A DNA stretch of 64,000 bases from Corynebacterium sp. ES2730-CONJ (GTDB taxonomy: Bacteria > Actinomycetota > Actinomycetes > Mycobacteriales > Mycobacteriaceae), in the NCBI RefSeq assembly GCF_024834055.1, contig NZ_JANUXZ010000001.1:430340-494339 (forward strand). The letters are read 5' to 3'. The notes beneath the pieces are model-generated. The model did not search any database and was not told the DNA's origin. It was given only the letters and a program-made list of their open reading frames with translations. Below, piece by piece: positions 4,654-44,131 of the stretch. Each line of letters opens with the position of its first letter. Positions within the stretch are counted from its first letter, which is position 1. A program made the translations under genes and the position numbers.

Positions 4654-5589
4654 ATGAGCTCTCCTACCTTGCCCAAGATTGTTGTCGTGACCACCGGCGG
4701 AACCATCGCTTCCGTGGCACATGCCGGCGGCGCTCGCCATCCAGAAATTACTGGCGAAAAACTCATCGCCCCGATTCGCCAGCGTTTTCATGATCAGTGC
4801 ACGTTTGAGGTCAGGTCTGTTGGCGTCATTGACTCGTCCGCCATGACCTTTGCCACCATCGACACCATCGTTACTGTCTGCCACGAAGCCCTGCGCGATC
4901 CCACGGTAACGGGTGTCATAGTCACGCACGGAACCGATTCGATGGAAGAGACAGCGATCGCCCTCGATACCTTCCACACCGACGCTCGCCCGATTGTTGT
5001 TACTGGCTCCCAGGAACCGTTCGATTCGGAGCACTATGACGGCTACGATAATCTTGCTGATGCTGTAATAGTCGCTTTAGATTCAAGCGCTCGTAATATA
5101 GGAGTACTGGTCACCTTCGGTCGCGCGGTCCTAGCCGCACGCGGAATGATGAAATGGCATACCAGAGACTTCCTCGGTTTTGCCACGAATGCACCCGAGG
5201 AACCCGAGCGGGCAGAGCCGGTGCCGGTGGTTCCACTTGAAGATATTCGGGTTGACATTATTTATGCTTATCCTGGGGCTCCGCGCACTCTTGTCGATGC
5301 TGCTCTAGCAGCTGGAGCGAACGGTCTTGTTGTCGAGGCGATGGGGGCCGGAAATGTTGGTGCTGAGATGGCGGCGGCGTTGATCGACGCCCGTGAGAAA
5401 AATATTCCCGTTGTGATAAGCACGCGTGTGCCCAGAGGCGAAGTGAATGCATTGTACGGCGGGGCGGGCGGTGGTAGTACTCTCAAGGCCCATGGTGTCG
5501 TAGGCTCGCGCTATTTTCGCAGCGCCCAGGCTCGCGTGCTCCTCGCGATTGCCATCGCCTCAGGCCGTGTGCCGGAAACTCTCTTTTAG
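4654..5589 (+). CDS. ansA: L-asparaginase
   Basis: A 311-residue type I/II asparaginase, hydrolysing L-asparagine to aspartate and ammonia. The first active-site motif is TTGGTIAS, with the nucleophilic Thr at about residue 17. The second is THGTDSMEET, with Thr94/Asp95 as the catalytic pair partners. There is no signal peptide, so the protein is cytoplasmic. Its 3' end overlaps the convergent dinB gene by 4 nt. The ansA-dinB-ileS order recalls Rv1538-Rv1536 in M. tuberculosis. Confidence 0.94.
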   Translation: MSSPTLPKIVVVTTGGTIASVAHAGGARHPEITGEKLIAPIRQRFHDQCTFEVRSVGVIDSSAMTFATIDTIVTVCHEALRDPTVTGVIVTHGTDSMEETAIALDTFHTDARPIVVTGSQEPFDSEHYDGYDNLADAVIVALDSSARNIGVLVTFGRAVLAARGMMKWHTRDFLGFATNAPEEPERAEPVPVVPLEDIRVDIIYAYPGAPRTLVDAALAAGANGLVVEAMGAGNVGAEMAAALIDAREKNIPVVISTRVPRGEVNALYGGAGGGSTLKAHGVVGSRYFRSAQARVLLAIAIASGRVPETLF

Positions 5590-6971
5590 AAATCTTCCTC
5601 AGCTAGGTTGTCTGGCCACGCCAGGCTCGCTATAGGATCAGCCGGCTCTAGGAGGGGATCGTCGGTTGAGAATGTCTTAATAAATCCCGGGCCTGTCGCG
5701 CGGGTTTCAAAACGGACGGTCAGCACTCCGTGTCCACATCCTTGGATCCACCCATGACCATAGTCAGGATGGGAGATATCTTGGGTGGGGCGCCATCCGC
5801 CATTATCGTGGGAACTAATATCAACCTCGGTGCTGATTTCTGGGGTCGAGCTACGGACTCCGACCTCGTAGTCAGACTCTGCCGACGCTACTGGTTTACT
5901 GGGCAGCAATTCAGGGAATAGCATCTCCTGGCTCGGCATTTCGAGGTTGGAAAAGGATACGCCGACGAGGCGAATAGGTCCTACTTCCTGCGGATAGCGG
6001 AGGAGCAATTCCGCTGTCTTTTCTAATAATTGCTGGTCGTCGGTGGCGTAGAGGAAAGAGTGGGAGCGTGTTTCGTTGTGGTGATCGGCCATTTTAAGTT
6101 TGACACTGACAGTGCGCGCTCCTCGTCCATCTTTGAGCAAACGTTGGTGAGCGCTGCGAAAAGCGCGCTGCAAAGCCTGGTCCACATCGTCTTTTGCGAT
6201 CAAATCTTCTGAGTAGGTAAATTCGGCGCCCACAGATTTTGCAATAGCGCGGGGGGCTACGGGACGGTTGTCGTTTCCCCGGGCAATCTCCCACAAAGCT
6301 AGCCCTGTGGCTCGACCGAGGGCAATTTCCACTTCTTTTTCTTCAAGCGCGGCAAAATCGGCAATCGTATGAACCCCTAGATCTTTCAATCGGCGGGAAG
6401 CCACTGGTCCGACTCCCCATAGTTTTCCTACTGGCAGAGCACCGAGAATTTCGCGCTCATCTTCGTGATTAATAACAGCTACTCCGTCCGGTTTCGCCAA
6501 ACCAGACCCGATTTTTGCGGCCTGTTTTCCGCTTCCGCACCCAATAGAGCACGTGAGTCCTGTTTCTTCGCGGATTGCTTGTCGCAAGTTTTCAGCCCAC
6601 GCTGTCACCTCTTCAGCCTCTTGACCATGTAGGTTCTCCGGCTCTAGGAATGCCTCGTCGATAGAGAGCTGTTCGATGAGACCCGCTTTATTTTTCACAA
6701 TACGGAAGACCCGCTGAGATACTAGTGAGTAGACGTTTTTCCGGGGTGAGATAACTACGGCACTATATCCCACGAGATTTTTTGCTTGGTGCATGGGCAT
6801 GGCTGAATGGGCACCAAAGGCACGCGCTTCATAGCTAGCGCCCGCTACTACTCCGCGCCCGGAGGTGCCGCCCACAAGGACGGGGCGTCCCTTGAGGGTC
6901 GGTTTGGTGAGCTGTTCCACTGAGGCGAAGAAGGCATCCATATCAATGTGCAGTACCCACCTCTTATCCAT
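5586..6971 (-). CDS. dinB: DNA polymerase IV (Y-family translesion polymerase)
   Basis: A 461-residue Y-family polymerase for error-prone or lesion-bypass synthesis. Palm metal ligands are visible in HIDMDAFFASVEQ (Asp10 and Asp12) and SIDEAFLE (Asp105, Glu106). The fingers motif ASYEARAFGAHSAMP at about residues 45-59 is present. The C-terminal region (about 355-461) lacks an obvious beta-clamp QxxLF motif except GQEMLFPEL-like SQEMLFPEL near residue 350. The extended acidic and Trp-containing tail (GGWRPTQDISHPDYGHGW) is typical of actinobacterial DinX/DinP-type proteins. A degenerate LexA-like half-palindrome sits directly upstream of the start. Confidence 0.94.
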   Translation of the reverse strand: MDKRWVLHIDMDAFFASVEQLTKPTLKGRPVLVGGTSGRGVVAGASYEARAFGAHSAMPMHQAKNLVGYSAVVISPRKNVYSLVSQRVFRIVKNKAGLIEQLSIDEAFLEPENLHGQEAEEVTAWAENLRQAIREETGLTCSIGCGSGKQAAKIGSGLAKPDGVAVINHEDEREILGALPVGKLWGVGPVASRRLKDLGVHTIADFAALEEKEVEIALGRATGLALWEIARGNDNRPVAPRAIAKSVGAEFTYSEDLIAKDDVDQALQRAFRSAHQRLLKDGRGARTVSVKLKMADHHNETRSHSFLYATDDQQLLEKTAELLLRYPQEVGPIRLVGVSFSNLEMPSQEMLFPELLPSKPVASAESDYEVGVRSSTPEISTEVDISSHDNGGWRPTQDISHPDYGHGWIQGCGHGVLTVRFETRATGPGFIKTFSTDDPLLEPADPIASLAWPDNLAEEDF

Positions 6972-7060
6972 GCGAACAAGTGTACTAAAAGCACTATCAG
7001 GTGCAAATGCGGAAATTTGAGGGAAAATATGGCTATTATTTGATAGTCAAAACAACTAAT

Positions 7061-28132: not shown

Positions 28133-28807
28133 CTAGTTCCCTGCAGTATAGGGAGCGATATCTGCCACCACGGGACCCTCGATGGGCGCCGTAGTCTGTT
28201 GATCCATCGTACCCTGTGTGTGGAGCGGATCGCTGGTGGGGATATTAGACGTCATATACTCATCGTTGATATCGGTGATCGGGCGCGTGCGATCACTAGG
28301 GGGCCGCTGTTCGACTACGGTGCCATCGGGATTGCGCACTAAGACACCTGGCTGATCTGGAATCACCATGCCATAGCGCTGTGCTTGGCGGGCAATTTGA
28401 CCTGTCGCTGCGGCTCGCTCCACGTCTCTATTGAGCGTCTCGAGCTGGTTATCCAAAGTCTGCTGCGCGATCCTTAGCTCGGTGATCCTGAAGGCTTGTT
28501 GGGTGGTCACACCAGAGACAATTGAGGCGGCCAGGAAACCGAGCAGAATGAGGAGGGTGAAGCCTACAACCGTATACACCGCGCGACGATTAGCTTGCGG
28601 GCGTTCGATTCGGCGACCACGGTGTGTGAACTGTTGCTTTGAGCCACTCTTATGTTGGAAGCGCCTTTGAGGGGCAGTCACCGTGCGGGTAACCACGGGG
28701 CGCTGAGGAGGTGCTAGCGTGCTAAGTCGAGAGCTTTGCATAGACCCCTTGCTTAAGTCGCGAGACTGACCAGTGCGCTTGCGGGGCTCGATGGTCGTTG
28801 CATTCAT
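28133..28807 (-). CDS. ftsL: FtsL-like bitopic division protein
   Basis: A 224-residue protein in the position of ftsL. A long basic cytoplasmic N-terminus (residues 1-73) is followed by one transmembrane helix (about 75-97, [21 protein letters not shown]). A short extracytoplasmic coiled coil comes next ([20 protein letters not shown]), and then a Pro/Asp-rich tail. These are the features of FtsL, which bridges FtsQ/FtsB and FtsWI. The primary sequence is poorly conserved in this family, so identity rests mostly on topology and context. The start overlaps the rsmH stop by 4 nt. Confidence 0.82.
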
Positions 28808-29826
28808 GATCCTATGCCTTCTTTTATTGCTTGCACAGCCCGAACCCGAACAGGGGCGGAACGCGGATTGGTATCAATTTCAGTAGCAGAAGCTTTCTCC
28901 GCTCCCCGGGTCAGAAGTTTGAAGCGAGGAGAATCATCAGGCAAATGAACCGGTAGCCCCAAGGGTGTAGTGTCCGCCGTAATTTTTTTGAAGTAATTCT
29001 TCACGATCTTGTCCTCAAGAGACTGATAGGCCATAAAGATACATCGCCCGCCTGGAGCTAAAAGATCAGTGATGACGGGAAGTACATTCTCGATGGCTTC
29101 GAGCTCCTTGTTCACCTCAATGCGTAGGGCCTGGAATGTCCTTTTTGCGGGGTGACCACCAGTGCGGCGAGTCGCGGCGGGAATAGTGGCATAGAGAAGT
29201 TCGACAAGGCGCGCCGAGGTAACAAATGGTGCTTTCTCGCGTTCCTTCACGATGGCCGTAGCGATCTTTCCAGCGAAACGTTCTTCGCCGTAGGTCTTGA
29301 GCAGACGAGCCAAGTCGCCGTGGGAGTAAGTATTGAGAATATCGGCGGCGGTGAGCCCGTCATTGCCATCCATACGCATATCGAGGGGTGCATCGACTCG
29401 GTAGGCAAAGCCTCGCTCAATCTGATCAAGCTGCATCGATGACACTCCCAGGTCAAAAAGAGCACCCGTGAGTCCGAATTCTTTTAGTAAGGTACACCCA
29501 GGGGCATCGGAGGCTCTTAAGAGAGGCAGGAAGCGATCGAAGCGAGTATTGAAGGCGATAAACCTAGAGCCAAAGGGTTTTAAACGCTCACGGGCCTGGT
29601 CTAGGGCCCGCTCATCTCGGTCGAGGCCGATAATATGCACGCTTGTAAAGGTGTTCAGAAGGGATTCGCTGTGCCCTCCAGCACCTAGGGTGCCATCAAT
29701 AATGACGGCGTTATCGCCCATGAGCTCGACAGCGGGACTGAGAAGTTCAACGATCCTGTCTCGCATAACCGGTATGTGGCCGTGATTGGCCGCGGTGTGA
29801 TCAAACTGAGTAGTGCTGTCAACCAC
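28804..29826 (-). CDS. rsmH: 16S rRNA (cytosine1402-N4)-methyltransferase
   Basis: A 340-residue SAM-dependent methyltransferase (formerly MraW). The start is a GTG at 29826 preceded by AAAGAG at 7 nt. Landmarks are [13 protein letters not shown] at the N-terminus, the SAM-binding [15 protein letters not shown] (about residues 43-57), [25 protein letters not shown] and [18 protein letters not shown]. It lies between mraZ and ftsL in the conserved order. The 171-nt interval from mraZ carries no gene. Confidence 0.97.
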
Positions 29827-29997: not shown

Positions 29998-30429
29998 TTA
30001 GAGCAAACCGCCCAAGATATCACCATCGGCAGCTGCGAAGGCTGCTTCAGTTTCTTCTTGGTACGTTGCCCAGGCCTCGGCGTCCCAGATTTCAAGGAAA
30101 TCCATGGATCCTATGACCACACATTCCTTCACAAGACCCGCATACTCACGGTGCGGAGCCGATAAAGTGATGCGTCCTTGACCATCTGGCCTTTGTTCAT
30201 CCGCACTTGCTGCGAGGTTACGGATAAAGGCGCGTGCCTCAGGATTCGTTCGCGAAACTTCTGCCGCTTTGCGAGCGCGTTTGACAAATTCATCCTTCGG
30301 GTAGACCGCCAGGGAATGGTCTTGCCCTTTGGTCACCATGAGACCGCCGGCTAGTTCCTCTCGAAATTTTGCCGGAAGAGTCAGGCGGCCCTTATCGTCC
30401 AGCTTGGGGGTATAAGTTCCCAGAAACAT
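29998..30429 (-). CDS. mraZ: Transcriptional regulator MraZ
   Basis: First gene of the dcw cluster, a DNA-binding protein with two AbrB-like/SpoVT domains that usually represses its own operon. I chose the ATG at 30429 ([23 protein letters not shown]; 143 aa), preceded by AAAGGTGGG. The frame continues upstream to 30501 with 24 residues unlike the family. The two DXXXR repeats are DDKGRLTLP (about 10-18) and DGQGRITLS (about 81-89). Three GTGGGG repeats with 10-bp periodicity about 105 nt upstream are its probable operator. Confidence 0.95.
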
Positions 30430-30532
30430 GGATGCAGGCACCCACCTTTCTTTTCCAAGCCTCGGTTGACAATCAAGGGGCAGTAATCGTGTGTCCTCCA
30501 CTTATCTGCGAAGGTTTCCCGTTTACTACGTG

Positions 30533-30558
30533 CCCCACTCTACCCCACAATCCCCCAC
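30533..30558 (-). promoter_or_regulatory. MraZ operator: three GTGGGG boxes at 10-bp spacing
   Basis: Read on the minus strand, GTGGGG occurs at 30558-30553, 30548-30543 and 30538-30533, exactly one helical turn apart. This matches the known MraZ binding pattern of direct TGGGN repeats separated by 10 bp. A possible promoter overlaps: TTGTGG within the boxes and TAGTAA 16 nt later could serve as -35 and -10. Autoregulation of the mraZ-rsmH-fts-mur operon is the inference. Confidence 0.88.
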
Positions 30559-30865
30559 TTTTTGTAGCCAAACATTGAATCTACCCTTTTTTGCGCGCAA
30601 AAAATGCTTTTACCTGCGCAGATATGAGTGGGTCAAAATTTTAGCTATAGCCAGTTCACCCCTGGATTCTCCCCCATTGGTATCGTTGTACACCGCTAGT
30701 ATAAGACACACCCATCATTCACAAGACTTAACAGCAGTCCTCAAAAACCTCATATTTCTGTGGCGAACTGCACCATCATCCACAACTTAACCGAGAACCA
30801 TTCCAGCACTATCCAAAAAATTTAAAACCCAGCCATTGATGGTGGGGGGAAGTGGGGAGCACAAT
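30559..30865. other. AT-rich non-coding region upstream of mraZ
   Basis: About 300 nt between the dcw operator and the DUF3040 terminator, with no credible gene. It contains a perfect 18-bp palindrome at 30587-30604. It also has a second pair of GTGGGG boxes at 10-bp spacing, on the opposite strand, at 30842-30857. The remainder is poor in guanine on the plus strand and shows no conserved RNA motif that I recognise. Confidence 0.55.
30587..30604. repeat. Perfect 18-bp palindrome upstream of mraZ boxes
   Basis: TTTTTTGCGCGCAAAAAA is a self-complementary dyad 29 bp upstream of the first MraZ box. It could bind a dimeric regulator or form a hairpin. The simple composition leaves chance as an alternative. 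Confidence 0.6.
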
Positions 30866-30892
30866 AAAAACCCCCAAGATTTCTCTTGAGGG
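30866..30892 (-). terminator. Intrinsic terminator of the DUF3040 gene
   Basis: On the minus strand CCCTCAAGA pairs with TCTTGGGGG around a GAAA tetraloop, followed by TTTTTATTG. It lies 17 nt past the stop. Confidence 0.9.
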
Positions 30893-30908
30893 CTGAGATA
30901 AAAAGCGT

Positions 30909-31283
30909 TTATTTTTCGAAGCGTTTGCGGAAATTCTCTTCCATACGCGACCCCAAGCCGTCGTCTTTGACCGGCCGTGGTAGGGTTTTCTCTCTCTTCG
31001 TTAAACCACTAGAAGCACCATCTCCACTGAGCATCCAGATAGCGCCAGCCACCATCACCACAAAGCCGACAATACTGAGGGCAACCAGCCATAGGGAGAT
31101 TTGACTAAGTGCTACCCCACCGACCAACATCACAAGGCCAATGACGATAACTGCAAAGCCCCTGAAGCTCAGCGCGCTATGAGCTTCGCCTCGCGGGACC
31201 GACTTACCGAAGTGTGGATCCTCCGCCAGCAACGACCGTTCGATCTCCTTGAGTAATTCTTGCTCGTGCTCGGAAAGTGACAC
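30909..31283 (-). CDS. DUF3040 small membrane protein
   Basis: A small protein starting MSLSEHEQELLKEIERSLLAEDP, the DUF3040 signature. Two adjacent transmembrane segments follow (about residues 44-62 and 66-84), then a charged C-terminus. I chose the GTG at 31283 (124 aa) because AAGGGAGG lies 4 nt before it; the frame extends upstream without family similarity. DUF3040 proteins sit upstream of mraZ in mycobacteria (Rv2169c position). The function is unknown; the context suggests an envelope or division role. Confidence 0.88.
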   Translation of the reverse strand: MSLSEHEQELLKEIERSLLAEDPHFGKSVPRGEAHSALSFRGFAVIVIGLVMLVGGVALSQISLWLVALSIVGFVVMVAGAIWMLSGDGASSGLTKREKTLPRPVKDDGLGSRMEENFRKRFEK

Positions 31284-31469: not shown

Positions 31470-31898
31470 CTAAGAAGCCGCTGGGTAGGAGACCACGGTA
31501 ATCCGATCCACCTCGTTATAAAACTCGGCCACGAGCTCGATGAGCTCATCTAAGACCTCCACGGTTAGCTGGCACTCCAATCCCGATAGAGATCGGCTAC
31601 GCAATTGCGAAAAGGCTCCGATACGCTGCGCCCACTGCGTAGCCTCGCCGCCCACCATAGCTAACTGAGCAAAAACTGAACGCGGCTTCCGTTTACGCTT
31701 CGCCACGACGGTACAGGACACCCACGCAGCCGCAACCTTAATGGATGCCAGGTATGCATATTCTAAGGCGATATCGAGACGACCGTGGTCGCGAGCCTGC
31801 ACCGCCTCACGGGTGAGCACCTGAGCACGGTTTAAGAAACCCGCGGCACTCCCCTGACCAGCCTGAAAACGTGTACTAGCCGAAACGACGACTCCCAT
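31470..31898 (-). CDS. SAV_6107-family HEPN-domain protein
   Basis: A 142-residue all-helical protein matching my recollection of the SAV_6107-type HEPN family (FLNRAQVLTREAVQARDHGR, LEYAYLASIKVAAAWV). The catalytic R-x4-6-H motif of HEPN ribonucleases is not seen, so nuclease activity is unlikely. AAGGAG is 7 nt before the ATG. The gene diverges from a GNAT gene, and a perfect LexA-type palindrome lies 124 nt upstream of its start, so SOS control is inferred. HEPN partners often bind nucleotides or partner nucleotidyltransferases; none is adjacent here. Confidence 0.78.
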   Translation of the reverse strand: MGVVVSASTRFQAGQGSAAGFLNRAQVLTREAVQARDHGRLDIALEYAYLASIKVAAAWVSCTVVAKRKRKPRSVFAQLAMVGGEATQWAQRIGAFSQLRSRSLSGLECQLTVEVLDELIELVAEFYNEVDRITVVSYPAAS

Positions 31899-32021
31899 TA
31901 TCTTTCTCCTTAATCATTCACGCCTTTCGAGCGACGAGACTCAGGGGGCTTATGCCTTTTTAGAACGAAGATTTGCTTGTTGTAGCTCAGATTATCGAAT
32001 GAGGTGGACTACACACTCCTC

Positions 32022-32045
32022 ATTTTAGAACATATGTTCTAAAAT
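32022..32045. promoter_or_regulatory. LexA-type SOS box (24-bp perfect palindrome)
   Basis: Two 12-bp arms, ATTTTAGAACAT and ATGTTCTAAAAT, abut without a spacer. The core GAACATATGTTC fits the actinobacterial LexA consensus GAACnnnnGTTC. It sits in the 207-nt interval between the divergent HEPN gene (124 nt to its start) and GNAT gene (61 nt to its start), so one dimer site could repress both promoters. Confidence 0.85.
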
Positions 32046-32105: not shown

Positions 32106-32651
32106 GTGCCTATCTTCTACTCACGCCTGAGCCCTTATGAATTCTCGGTGCTCTGTCCCCAACTGGTCAGTATTTATATCCGTGCGATGAGTTATGGCAC
32201 AGACGTGCACAACACAGCGATGAAAGCGTGGCGGATTGCCTCCCTCGAAAAAGATTTTCAATCAGTTATCGCGCATGATGCCAGCCACCTTTTGGGCTTT
32301 TGTTTTGGCCACCGCGGAGCCCGCCACCAGTGGTGGGACCAAGAAATTCGGCGCGGTTTGCGTGAGCATGGGTCACACCGCTTAGAGGTGCTAGGAGATT
32401 ATTTCACTATTTCCGAAATTCACGTCGAACCCCGACTCCAAGGACTGGGGATCGGCCACTCCCTCCTCCAACAGCTACTGCACAAGGTAGACTGTGAGTA
32501 CGCCATACTATCTACTCCCGAAGTGAACGCAGAAGAGAATGCAGCATTCCACCTGTATAGGAACTTTGGCTTTCAAGATGTACTTCGCGATTTTCACTTT
32601 CGCGGCGATGCCCGCCCCTTTGCCATCCTCTCTAAGCAATTGCGCCCCTAA
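32106..32651 (+). CDS. GNAT-family N-acetyltransferase
   Basis: A 181-residue acetyl-CoA-dependent acyltransferase. Motif A, with the coenzyme A pyrophosphate loop, is IHVEPRLQGLGIGHSLLQQLL (shown as VEPRLQGLGIG), matching R/Q-x-x-G-x-G/A. Motif B, NAAFHLYRNFGFQDV, follows near residue 155. The start is GTG at 32106, with only a weak AAGG next to it, so the transcript may be leaderless or the start uncertain. It occupies the Rv2170 position of the mycobacterial order. The acceptor substrate is unknown. It probably shares the LexA-type operator with the divergent HEPN gene. Confidence 0.87.
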   Translation: MPIFYSRLSPYEFSVLCPQLVSIYIRAMSYGTDVHNTAMKAWRIASLEKDFQSVIAHDASHLLGFCFGHRGARHQWWDQEIRRGLREHGSHRLEVLGDYFTISEIHVEPRLQGLGIGHSLLQQLLHKVDCEYAILSTPEVNAEENAAFHLYRNFGFQDVLRDFHFRGDARPFAILSKQLRP

Positions 32652-32809: not shown

Positions 32810-33880
32810 ATGAATCAGTACCCTGCAATCGAGGATCTACCAGCTCGTGTTGAAGATAAGCTCCGCCGCTTCTTCAGCGAGCAGCGCGAAGCTATTGCTA
32901 CTATCGGAGACCCTGTCTCGGAGGCTGTAGGGAAACTGGAAACATTTGTCCTAAGCGGCGGGAAAAGGATGCGACCTCTGTGCGCCTGGGCAGGTTATGT
33001 GGCAGCTGGTCATGAGTGTGAAGACGTCGAAGCTGTTATCACTGCCATATCTTCGCTCGAATTTATTCAGGCCTGTGCTCTCATCCACGACGATATTATC
33101 GATTCTTCTGATACGAGACGCGGCAATCCCACCTTTCACCGCCTCATCGAATCCACACACCGACAGCGCGGCTGGTCTCGCGATAGCGCTCACTTTGGAG
33201 AATCAGTCGCCATCCTCATGGGCGATCTCGGGCTCGTTTGGGCCGACGATATGTTCCACTCCTCTGGGTTAAGCCCCGCTGCCATCACCAGAGCCCTACC
33301 GGCATGGCGCGGAATGCGAACGGAGGTTATCGGCGGCCAATTACTTGATATCGCGCTAGAGGCTAGCTCAAGCGAAGATCTCGCCCTAGCCAATAATGTC
33401 AATCGTTTCAAAACCGCCGCCTATACCATCGAGCGCCCCTTACATATCGGAGCTGCACTCGGTGATGCCTCGGCCGAACGAATCACCGGTTTGCGACACT
33501 TTGGTAGGGAAATCGGTATAGCTTTCCAACTCCGAGACGATCAATTGGGGGTCTTCGGGGATCCTGAGGTTACCGGCAAACCAGCAGGCGACGATCTGCG
33601 CGAGGGTAAACGAACGGTACTTCTCGCCACTGCGCTCAAACTTGCTGATCCCGCAACTAAAAAGCGGATTCGAGCTGGTATAGGCAACGTCGTGGACGCT
33701 GCAGCTATTAGCCAGCTAACGGCCGATATCAAAAGCACAGGGGCCGATGAAGCAATCGAAGAGCGAATTGACACGATGGTCTCACAAGGACTTCACTATC
33801 TGGAGCAGCTTAACCTGAAGCCAGAAGTATTTGAGTTACTCTCGCAGATTGCCTCCCAGGCCACGGCGCGCGCCCTTTAG
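32810..33880 (+). CDS. idsA: Polyprenyl diphosphate synthase (IdsA-type GGPP synthase)
   Basis: A 356-residue trans-prenyltransferase elongating isopentenyl diphosphate chains. The first Asp-rich motif is LIHDDIIDSSDTRRG and the second is FQLRDDQLGVFGDP, both complete. Residue choices before the first motif (SLEFIQACALIHDD) suit short-chain C15-C20 products. In corynebacteria IdsA supplies GGPP/FPP for decaprenyl phosphate, carotenoids and menaquinone. GAGGA precedes the ATG. It is followed 8 nt later by mptA, which uses a polyprenyl-phosphate mannose donor, so co-expression is sensible. Confidence 0.92.
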   Translation: MNQYPAIEDLPARVEDKLRRFFSEQREAIATIGDPVSEAVGKLETFVLSGGKRMRPLCAWAGYVAAGHECEDVEAVITAISSLEFIQACALIHDDIIDSSDTRRGNPTFHRLIESTHRQRGWSRDSAHFGESVAILMGDLGLVWADDMFHSSGLSPAAITRALPAWRGMRTEVIGGQLLDIALEASSSEDLALANNVNRFKTAAYTIERPLHIGAALGDASAERITGLRHFGREIGIAFQLRDDQLGVFGDPEVTGKPAGDDLREGKRTVLLATALKLADPATKKRIRAGIGNVVDAAAISQLTADIKSTGADEAIEERIDTMVSQGLHYLEQLNLKPEVFELLSQIASQATARAL

Positions 33881-43036: not shown

Positions 43037-44131
43037 TTACTCGGCATAACCCAAAACTGTGCGCAGCCGCCGACCCATGGTATCCCAGGTCCAATTTTCC
43101 TCGATATTCCTCCGGCCTGCCTCCCCCATGGCACGACGTCTTTCAGCATCTTCAGCAAGGTAGCACAAGGCTCGAAGGAGCTCCTTCGAATCGTGGACTA
43201 CAAGACCGCTATCAGCGGTCATGGTTTCCGGGGCACCCCCTGAGTTCCCAGCGATAACCGGCACTTGGCAAGCTTGCGCTTCAAGATAGACAATCCCTAG
43301 GCCCTCGATGTCGAGTCCGCCTCCCCTCGTGCGGCAAGGCATGGCAAAAATATCCGCACTCTGCATGAGCTCTACCTTTTCGGTTTCACTGATCCGACCT
43401 GAAAAGGTAATAGTTGGTTCATCACCTGCTAACCGGCGTAACCTCTTCTCGTCTCTCCCACTACCAGCAATAATAAGTTGGGCATGAGGATATGCGCGGA
43501 GAAATTCCGGCCACACCTGAATGAGTTGATCTTGACCTTTACGCGGAACCAGACGAGAGATGCACACAACCGTCAGAGATTCACTGTGCTGGGTGGGTCG
43601 AGGTCTAAATACGTCGTGGTCCACGCCTGAAGGCAGATGCGCAAAGTGACACGAACCTTTTTGCTCGAAGGCAGACGCGAAGCGATCCAGGGTGTAATCA
43701 GAGATATAGGTGACGCAGTCAGAGTGTTTTCCTATAGTGCCAAGGAGGGAGCGGGCAACAGGCAGCATGGACCAGCCCACTTCATGCCCGTGAGTGGTAG
43801 CCACTACGCGAGTCGCGCCGGCTTCTTTTGCTGCTGCCGCCAAGAGTCCGAGGGGAGCTGCTGCCCCGAACCACACGGTATCGACTGAATATGTGCGAAT
43901 TATTTGCTGCATCTTTCGGCGCACCCGAGGAGTGGGAAGCAGCACTCGCGCGGAGTCTCTTATGATCGGGTAACTAACCGTGGCATCATAGAGTGCCGCT
44001 TCGTGTTGGTCCTGGGTAGAGGCGTAGACAACGATATCGCCCGCAGGCAGGGTATGTACAAAATCGCGCACATATGATTGGATTCCGCCTGTGGTAGGGG
44101 GGAAATCGTTAGTAACGAGTAGGATCCGCAT
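43037..44131 (-). CDS. pimB: GT4 mannosyltransferase, PimB-like
   Basis: A 364-residue GT-B glycosyltransferase. The N-terminal acceptor-side motif is LVTNDFPPTTGGIQSYV. The donor site contains SRLVPRKGQDQLI and the EX7E-type segment EGLGIVYLEAQACQVPVIAG. These match PimB-prime, which adds the second mannose to phosphatidylinositol monomannoside. The position (Rv2188c in mycobacteria) agrees. The stop overlaps the start of the downstream reading of its neighbour by 1 nt: the NlpC/P60 gene ends at 44131, where pimB begins. Confidence 0.88.
   Translation of the reverse strand: MRILLVTNDFPPTTGGIQSYVRDFVHTLPAGDIVVYASTQDQHEAALYDATVSYPIIRDSARVLLPTPRVRRKMQQIIRTYSVDTVWFGAAAPLGLLAAAAKEAGATRVVATTHGHEVGWSMLPVARSLLGTIGKHSDCVTYISDYTLDRFASAFEQKGSCHFAHLPSGVDHDVFRPRPTQHSESLTVVCISRLVPRKGQDQLIQVWPEFLRAYPHAQLIIAGSGRDEKRLRRLAGDEPTITFSGRISETEKVELMQSADIFAMPCRTRGGGLDIEGLGIVYLEAQACQVPVIAGNSGGAPETMTADSGLVVHDSKELLRALCYLAEDAERRRAMGEAGRRNIEENWTWDTMGRRLRTVLGYAE

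Follow-up and report, generated by a model that had tools for sequence, protein, structure and literature searches.

The 48-gene LexA regulon of Corynebacterium glutamicum includes cg2381 (PMC5055667, citing Jochmann et al. 2009). According to the available text of that report, ciprofloxacin changed cg2381 expression by log2 3.86, equal to recA, and mraZ expression by log2 -1.13, i.e. down, whereas cg2382 is absent from its table, which omits changes below log2 1 (PMC5055667). The genes cg2378 (mraZ) and cg2380 border one intergenic region (PMC4046766); cg2380 is annotated as a putative membrane protein (PMC10012870, PMC5711897) and, in two studies of evolution in the laboratory, acquired frameshift or stop mutations (PMC5711897, PMC4722713). 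The motif of PafBC, a second damage-responsive regulator, is TGTCGG-N10-TA-N3-T (PMC8151990), and PafB recognizes its -26 part (PMC11804915, PMC10693628). RecA-NDp promoters exist outside mycobacteria as well, and some genes combine the LexA and RecA-NDp inputs (PMC8223512). Many HEPN proteins are RNases, and the SAV_6107 family (HEPN-M) is marked in a survey of the superfamily as being without the RX4-6H motif (PMC3710099). Among the literature matches listed for the SAV_6107 family, no link to SOS or to a polymerase was found, and none of the matches listed was by title a study of the PafBC or RecA-NDp regulon in Corynebacterium; HEPN was not found in the accessible main text of the S. venezuelae LexA paper.

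We analyzed a 64-kb window of the Corynebacterium sp. ES2730-CONJ genome, by which we mean the whole stretch of DNA under study; its features are collected in Table 1. A HEPN gene on the minus strand and a GNAT gene on the plus strand diverge from the 24-bp sequence ATTTTAGAACATATGTTCTAAAAT, as the first-pass annotation had correctly described, with DUF3040, mraZ and mraW following on the minus strand. The same annotation had called the 24-bp dyad free of mismatches, and ATTTTAGAACATATGTTCTAAAAT is indeed exactly self-complementary. It is the longest perfect palindrome of the window, the runners-up being two of 18 bp. The longest palindrome in 60 simulations of 64 kb (first-order Markov simulations, the null model used throughout) measured 20 bp (2 of 60), and 24 bp was reached in none.

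Table 1. Features of the 64-kb window, in window coordinates
Feature	Position	Strand	Remark
Perfect 24-bp palindrome ATTTTAGAACATATGTTCTAAAAT	32022-32045		between HEPN and GNAT
LexA box core TAGAACATATGTTCTA	32026-32041	no strand	inside palindrome; conserved in relatives
Predicted HEPN P1 -10 hexamer, TAAAAT	32022..32027	-	first two bases common to LexA box; TANNNT at this offset in relatives
Mirror TAAAAT, possible GNAT -10 in the ES2730-CONJ genome	32040..32045	+	rarely conserved (12/144)
P2 promoter-like element, GTC-N12-TAATCT	31989..32009	-	degenerate PafBC-type: AGTC replaces TGTC
HEPN_SAV_6107 gene, 142 aa	31470..31898	-	PF18726, E 6.1e-10; predicted main target of switch
N-terminal HEPN tail, MxxVISATTRF	31866-31898		first 11 residues
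GNAT acetyltransferase gene, 181 aa from listed GTG	32106..32651	+	PF13673, PF13508, PF00583; sequence matches to PDB RimI-like, all weak
Polyprenyl diphosphate synthase	32810-33880	+	beyond GNAT
DUF3040 (SCO2097-like) gene	30909..31283	-	downstream of HEPN; PF11239; SCO2097 model 93.6 bits, cut-off 110
Terminator-like hairpin + T tract	30869..30894	-	between DUF3040 and mraZ; position fits
TGGGG repeats	30530-30559	-	upstream of mraZ; presumably resembling MraZ boxes
mraZ	29998..30501	-	PF02381; first gene of division cluster
mraW	28804-29826	-	beyond mraZ
dinB (DNA polymerase IV)	5586..6971	-	the window's translesion polymerase; 24.5 kb from HEPN
Candidate LexA box TAGTACACTTGTTCGC	6972..6987	-	3 mismatches to TCGAACANNTGTTCGA; directly before dinB start codon
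Perfect 18-bp palindrome TTTTTTGCGCGCAAAAAA	30587-30604		side observation
Perfect 18-bp palindrome TCGAAGGAGCTCCTTCGA	43172-43189		side observation

The bare pattern GAACNNNNGTTC carries little information, being seen once in 64 kb versus 0.82 expected. The 12-mer core GAACATATGTTC, found at two of 12 genomic GAACNNNNGTTC places, has two copies in the 2.08-Mb genome: one in the palindrome and the other upstream of recA. We fitted a LexA matrix to Corynebacterium recA promoters, with a consensus as seed; recA was matched in 199 genomes, the promoters of 30 of these were taken, and 29 were used, one being below threshold. For the recA promoter of G156 (L172), no LexA box above threshold was found in the 400 bp searched. 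The window box scores 15.2 with this matrix and has two mismatches to TCGAACANNTGTTCGA, as does the recA box. Both the recA-trained matrix and the core common to the recA promoter support the earlier call of a LexA-type box. The recA LexA motif of the genus is mostly TCGAACANNTGTGCGT, or near it; the outer TAAAAT arms fall outside this motif and make more sense as the -10 of a promoter on the HEPN side. As we read the sequence, the symmetry of the window site is that of a LexA core, the conserved HEPN -10 and, in the ES2730-CONJ genome, a mirror copy.

A HEPN match was present in 167 of 201 Corynebacterium genomes (threshold 1e-5). These genomes provided 150 loci, ES2730-CONJ included, which became 149 when L151, where tblastn did not refind HEPN, was dropped; in all 149, GNAT is the divergent neighbor of HEPN. 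The first-pass annotation had proposed looking for the palindrome at orthologous loci, and there the box is kept: 123 of the 149 HEPN-GNAT intergenic regions score at least 8 with the recA-trained matrix, a score attained by 4.8% of simulated intergenic regions and by 3 of 149 equal-length GNAT-coding stretches. Scores of at least 6 are seen in 145 regions; 26 are under 8, with L052 and L117 under 0. Sites scoring at least 10 have a median distance of 91 bp to the HEPN start and 82 bp to that of GNAT. TANNNT starting at box position 15, where it shares the last two bases of the box, occurs on the HEPN strand at 80 of the 144 distinct sites and on the GNAT strand at 12; these counts, like the leader counts below, leave out the four loci scoring under 6 and are not independent, since the loci are related. 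Because a -10 hexamer adjoins the box so much more often on the HEPN strand, the HEPN gene is the predicted main target of the box, and in the window the box overlaps this predicted promoter, whose TAAAAT shares two box bases. LexA control of the HEPN gene is highly probable. In 19 of 145 leaders, versus 1 of 145 simulated ones, the first LexA box is followed within 60 nt by another that scores at least 8. PF18726 matched C. glutamicum as the sole positive among 14 control genomes; from this match and gene order we infer that cg2381 is the HEPN gene and cg2380 the DUF3040 gene, and cg2382 is presumably GNAT.

About 15 nt downstream of the LexA box, 89 of 145 leaders (89 of the 149 Corynebacterium loci) carry TGTC-N12-TANNNT. 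Other spacings from 6 to 19 were seen in 0 to 2 of the 145 leaders each, and at spacing 12 no antisense copy and none on the GNAT side (0 of 145) was found; GTC alone with the N12 spacing occurs in 98 of 145 leaders versus 1.7 simulated. The element is also present in 10 of the 30 recA promoters, and 76 of the 149 loci combine it with a LexA box scoring at least 8. We call it PafBC-type because its spacing equals that of the published PafBC motif. A pafA-family ORF followed by two adjacent WYL ORFs is encoded in the ES2730-CONJ genome, and we counted these as presence of pafB and pafC; the pafA-family ORF, cut short by the locus edge, scores 430 bits with TIGR03686 (cut-off 551), and the pafB- and pafC-specific models gave no match to the WYL ORFs. 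From these observations we infer PafBC action in Corynebacterium. TGTC at -26, 12 nt before TANNNT, was not found in the window, where the element reads AGTC-N12-TAATCT, and P2 may be weak or dead there.

The predicted HEPN structure has a mean pLDDT of 89.2 and matches HEPN folds, HEPN toxins among them; with PF18726 above its cut-off, this fold places the protein in the HEPN superfamily. At E 0.001 or below Foldseek alone returned nothing, and comparison with the PDB by sequence gave no match at E 1. An alignment of 42 sequences (A1) has no column with His in at least 30% of them, and a conserved RX4-6H was not found: the motif occurs in 11 of the 42, with at most three sharing one place. 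Conserved arginines are kept in the HEPN bundle. The N-terminal tail (Table 1) ranks with the best-conserved segments of the Corynebacterium HEPN proteins in this alignment; it is modeled with low confidence and is possibly a partner-binding peptide. A defense role was considered and rejected, PADLOC having returned a single, weak match (E 0.018).

Beyond the genus, PF18726 was matched by 121 genomes among 150 from the order, ES2730-CONJ included, and by none of the 13 listed for g2, a same-family genus that is presumably Mycobacterium. We sampled 50 outside loci, several of them from close relatives. The 30 best by score had flanks of at most 1.5 kb, which makes the polymerase counts lower bounds; the other 20 were hand-picked and include all six same-family loci. 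One (L295, a second stretch from a genome already represented, with no HEPN) was taken out, giving 49. A polymerase-type gene lies on the same strand within 1.9 kb downstream of HEPN in at least 34 of the 49, the partners being a second-type DnaE in 17, an ImuB-like protein in 9 and DinB in 8. The DnaE match starts 26-156 bp past the HEPN match, the ImuB-like match 807-1126 bp past it and the DinB match 797-1840 bp past it, with a methyltransferase in between in seven of the eight DinB loci. The HEPN-linked DnaE is the second, lower-scoring copy in each of three genomes checked (503-605 vs 1281-1304 bits). NCBIfam gave it 667 and 692 bits with the replicative model vs 636 and 651 with the error-prone one, all under cut-off; it is likely DnaE2, the error-prone enzyme, a name that we base on second-copy status and context.

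Individual loci vary around this arrangement. The order in L317 is HEPN, ImuB-like, DnaE; L288 has an ORF between HEPN and the ImuB-like gene that we take to be ImuA', and in L296 ligA follows. In L249, the LexA box is followed first by a DUF6504 ORF (1911-2225) and then by HEPN-DnaE, with a possible DnaE start at the stop codon of HEPN; DUF6504 there is another gene of unassigned role in an SOS polymerase cluster. A ParA-type gene on the opposite strand lies between HEPN and dinB in L294, and seemingly in L287, so that HEPN and dinB do not form one operon there. No polymerase was seen in 15 of the 49 loci: six same-family loci with the arrangement of the window, four short loci with the methyltransferase only, and five with neither. 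In L318, one of the methyltransferase-only genomes, extending the locus to about 4.9 kb downstream revealed no polymerase.

Regulatory elements recur at these outside loci. A LexA score of at least 10 occurs within 500 bp upstream of HEPN in 42 of 49, compared with 0.65 in simulations and 0 of 49 downstream stretches, and TGTC-N12-TANNNT lies upstream in nine of 49, all nine with a LexA box (simulated 0.15; downstream 1 of 49). In L283, L284 and L291, GNAT precedes the HEPN end by 1.2-2.3 kb, and the methyltransferase and dinB lie between HEPN and DUF3040. In a midpoint-rooted HEPN tree built from 20 A1 rows (out of 42) and the 49 outside rows, the Corynebacterium rows form one group, which joins the six same-family rows (100/97). 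Partner labels change 11 times together on this tree (minimum possible 5), with the starred branches forcing one to two changes per label. We read this as loss, in the corynebacterial line, of the methyltransferase and dinB from an older SOS cluster. Because dinB sits between HEPN and DUF3040 in those three loci, the position beside the division cluster looks like inherited gene order.

Other LexA-like sites of the genome are of uneven value. The window has four places with at most three mismatches to TCGAACANNTGTTCGA versus 2.43 expected, and the candidate box before dinB is backed by its position only; that position suggests that dinB is leaderless and SOS-controlled. A genome-wide scan at three mismatches gave 102 places, and the reversed pattern gave 107, so that weak matches are no guide to the LexA regulon of ES2730-CONJ. 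Five of the nine places with at most two mismatches were examined (L299-L303), leaving out L304-L307. Among these, the one-mismatch box TCGAACACTTGTTTGA marks the place where an imuA'-imuB-like pair begins (L300 1501-1516; G000 C4:155364-155379), names that we assume from PF00817. The other one-mismatch place is inside the start of an ORF without known SOS role (L299 1501-1516; G000 C3:414642-414657), and a two-mismatch box lies upstream of an ORF that by eye is ruvC-like, followed by a ruvA-like one (L301 1501-1516; G000 C3:216697-216712). The lexA gene is at C3:268621, with several half-box repeats upstream by eye and a divergent ORF that we take, from its position, to be divS-like.

We propose, with a probability of about 0.58, that the palindrome is an SOS box in the predicted HEPN promoter and that it switches on, upon damage, a non-RNase HEPN protein predicted to assist translesion synthesis. 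LexA at the box would hide the HEPN -10, and RecA-ssDNA, by making LexA cleave itself, would free it. In relatives, ssDNA-activated PafBC would act as a second, RecA-independent input at P2, one that would be weak or lost in the ES2730-CONJ genome. The HEPN bundle, without RX4-6H but with conserved arginines, would bind or scaffold at damaged forks, working together with error-prone polymerases, and the window gene order would be a relic of an older one with the methyltransferase and dinB between HEPN and DUF3040. The translesion accessory role, drawn entirely from gene neighborhood, stands at close to even odds, a rating held slightly lower because of the loci split by a ParA-type gene, the ambiguous DnaE models and L318.

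The first-pass annotation had predicted that damage induces both divergent genes, and a LexA box governing HEPN and GNAT alike would be in line with the TAAAAT that flanks it on either strand in the ES2730-CONJ genome, with the gap of 60 bp from the palindrome to the listed GNAT start and with the divergent pair in 149 of 149 loci. The conserved -10 hexamers speak against joint control, no more than 12 of 144 sites having a GNAT-strand copy that adjoins the box, as does the absence of cg2382, the presumed GNAT gene, from a ciprofloxacin table in which small changes are unlisted (PMC5055667), and we regard it as rather unlikely. Of the predicted induction, the HEPN half agrees with the published response of cg2381, its presumed counterpart, and the GNAT half finds no such backing. 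We give almost no credence to a dyad-recognizing repressor other than LexA at the palindrome: the outer arms do extend past the LexA motif, and at three mismatches LexA-like sites are no more frequent in the genome than the reversed pattern, but the matrix scores and the core, which is as at recA, argue for LexA, as does the listing of cg2381 in the published LexA regulon (PMC5055667).

In an SOS division checkpoint, HEPN, or read-through from it, would modulate mraZ and the dcw cluster, in line with the link to envelope or division control raised by the first-pass annotation. HEPN does lie upstream of mraZ, but a terminator-like hairpin precedes mraZ (the region searched holds two such hairpins vs 2.3 expected in shuffles, so their count has no weight), the putative divS-like ORF, named by position, is already divergent to lexA, HEPN is near polymerases in at least 34 of 49 outside loci, and dinB parts it from DUF3040 in L283, L284 and L291. 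In C. glutamicum, mraZ falls with ciprofloxacin while cg2381 rises (PMC5055667), which may be taken as modulation; this fall, the hairpin and the polymerase context led us to set the checkpoint aside as improbable, and the link to division went unsupported. More improbable still is an RNase effector, toxin-like or abortive, that cuts RNA after damage. Its basis is the HEPN fold, with matches to HEPN toxins, and the RNase activity of many HEPN proteins (PMC3710099). It was rejected for the missing RX4-6H, there being no column with at least 30% His and at most three sequences sharing a motif place; the survey, too, lists SAV_6107 without the motif (PMC3710099), and neither GNAT nor DUF3040 is an MNT partner.

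With the proposed translesion role, a widespread actinobacterial family of unassigned function gains a role that can be tested; on ciprofloxacin, its presumed C. glutamicum member rises to the same extent as recA (PMC5055667). If the role is correct, damage-induced mutagenesis in actinobacteria would have a partner that work on Mycobacterium would miss, that genus being presumably the one without the gene. The apparent connection between SOS and division is recast as inherited gene order, and TGTC-N12-TANNNT points to PafBC-type promoters in Corynebacterium. More broadly, and tentatively, HEPN_SAV_6107 could be an unrecognized SOS-induced, dead-HEPN translesion subunit (with DinB, ImuA'-ImuB or DnaE2), in many corynebacteria under both LexA and PafBC. 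Its absence from 13 of 13 g2 genomes, together with its location away from any polymerase in the window, implies that HEPN is dispensable for bypass at large.

Among described systems, the protein is like the SAV_6107 family of the HEPN superfamily (PF18726, HEPN-M; PMC3710099) in its Pfam match and fold, and it differs in lacking RX4-6H, in its predicted SOS control and in having no MNT nucleotidyltransferase antitoxin gene adjoining it, the window neighbors being GNAT and DUF3040. Clusters of the ImuA'-ImuB-DnaE2 mutasome or of DinB resemble the locus in that, outside the genus, they carry HEPN close upstream of a polymerase-type gene, whereas the window HEPN is alone: no imuA', imuB, dnaE2 or dinB is next to it, dinB is 24.5 kb off and the imuA'-imuB-like pair lies on a different contig. 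The C. glutamicum SOS regulon lists cg2381, the presumed counterpart, as induced with recA, lexA and divS, but in the available text it figures there as a conserved hypothetical protein, without family, promoter anatomy or polymerase link (PMC5055667). Like mycobacterial genes with dual LexA and RecA-NDp/PafBC control, e.g. recA (PMC8223512), HEPN has both elements before one gene; unlike what is described for those genes, in Corynebacterium it is the upstream promoter that the LexA box overlaps, with the PafBC-type element placed downstream, in a form that is degenerate in the window.
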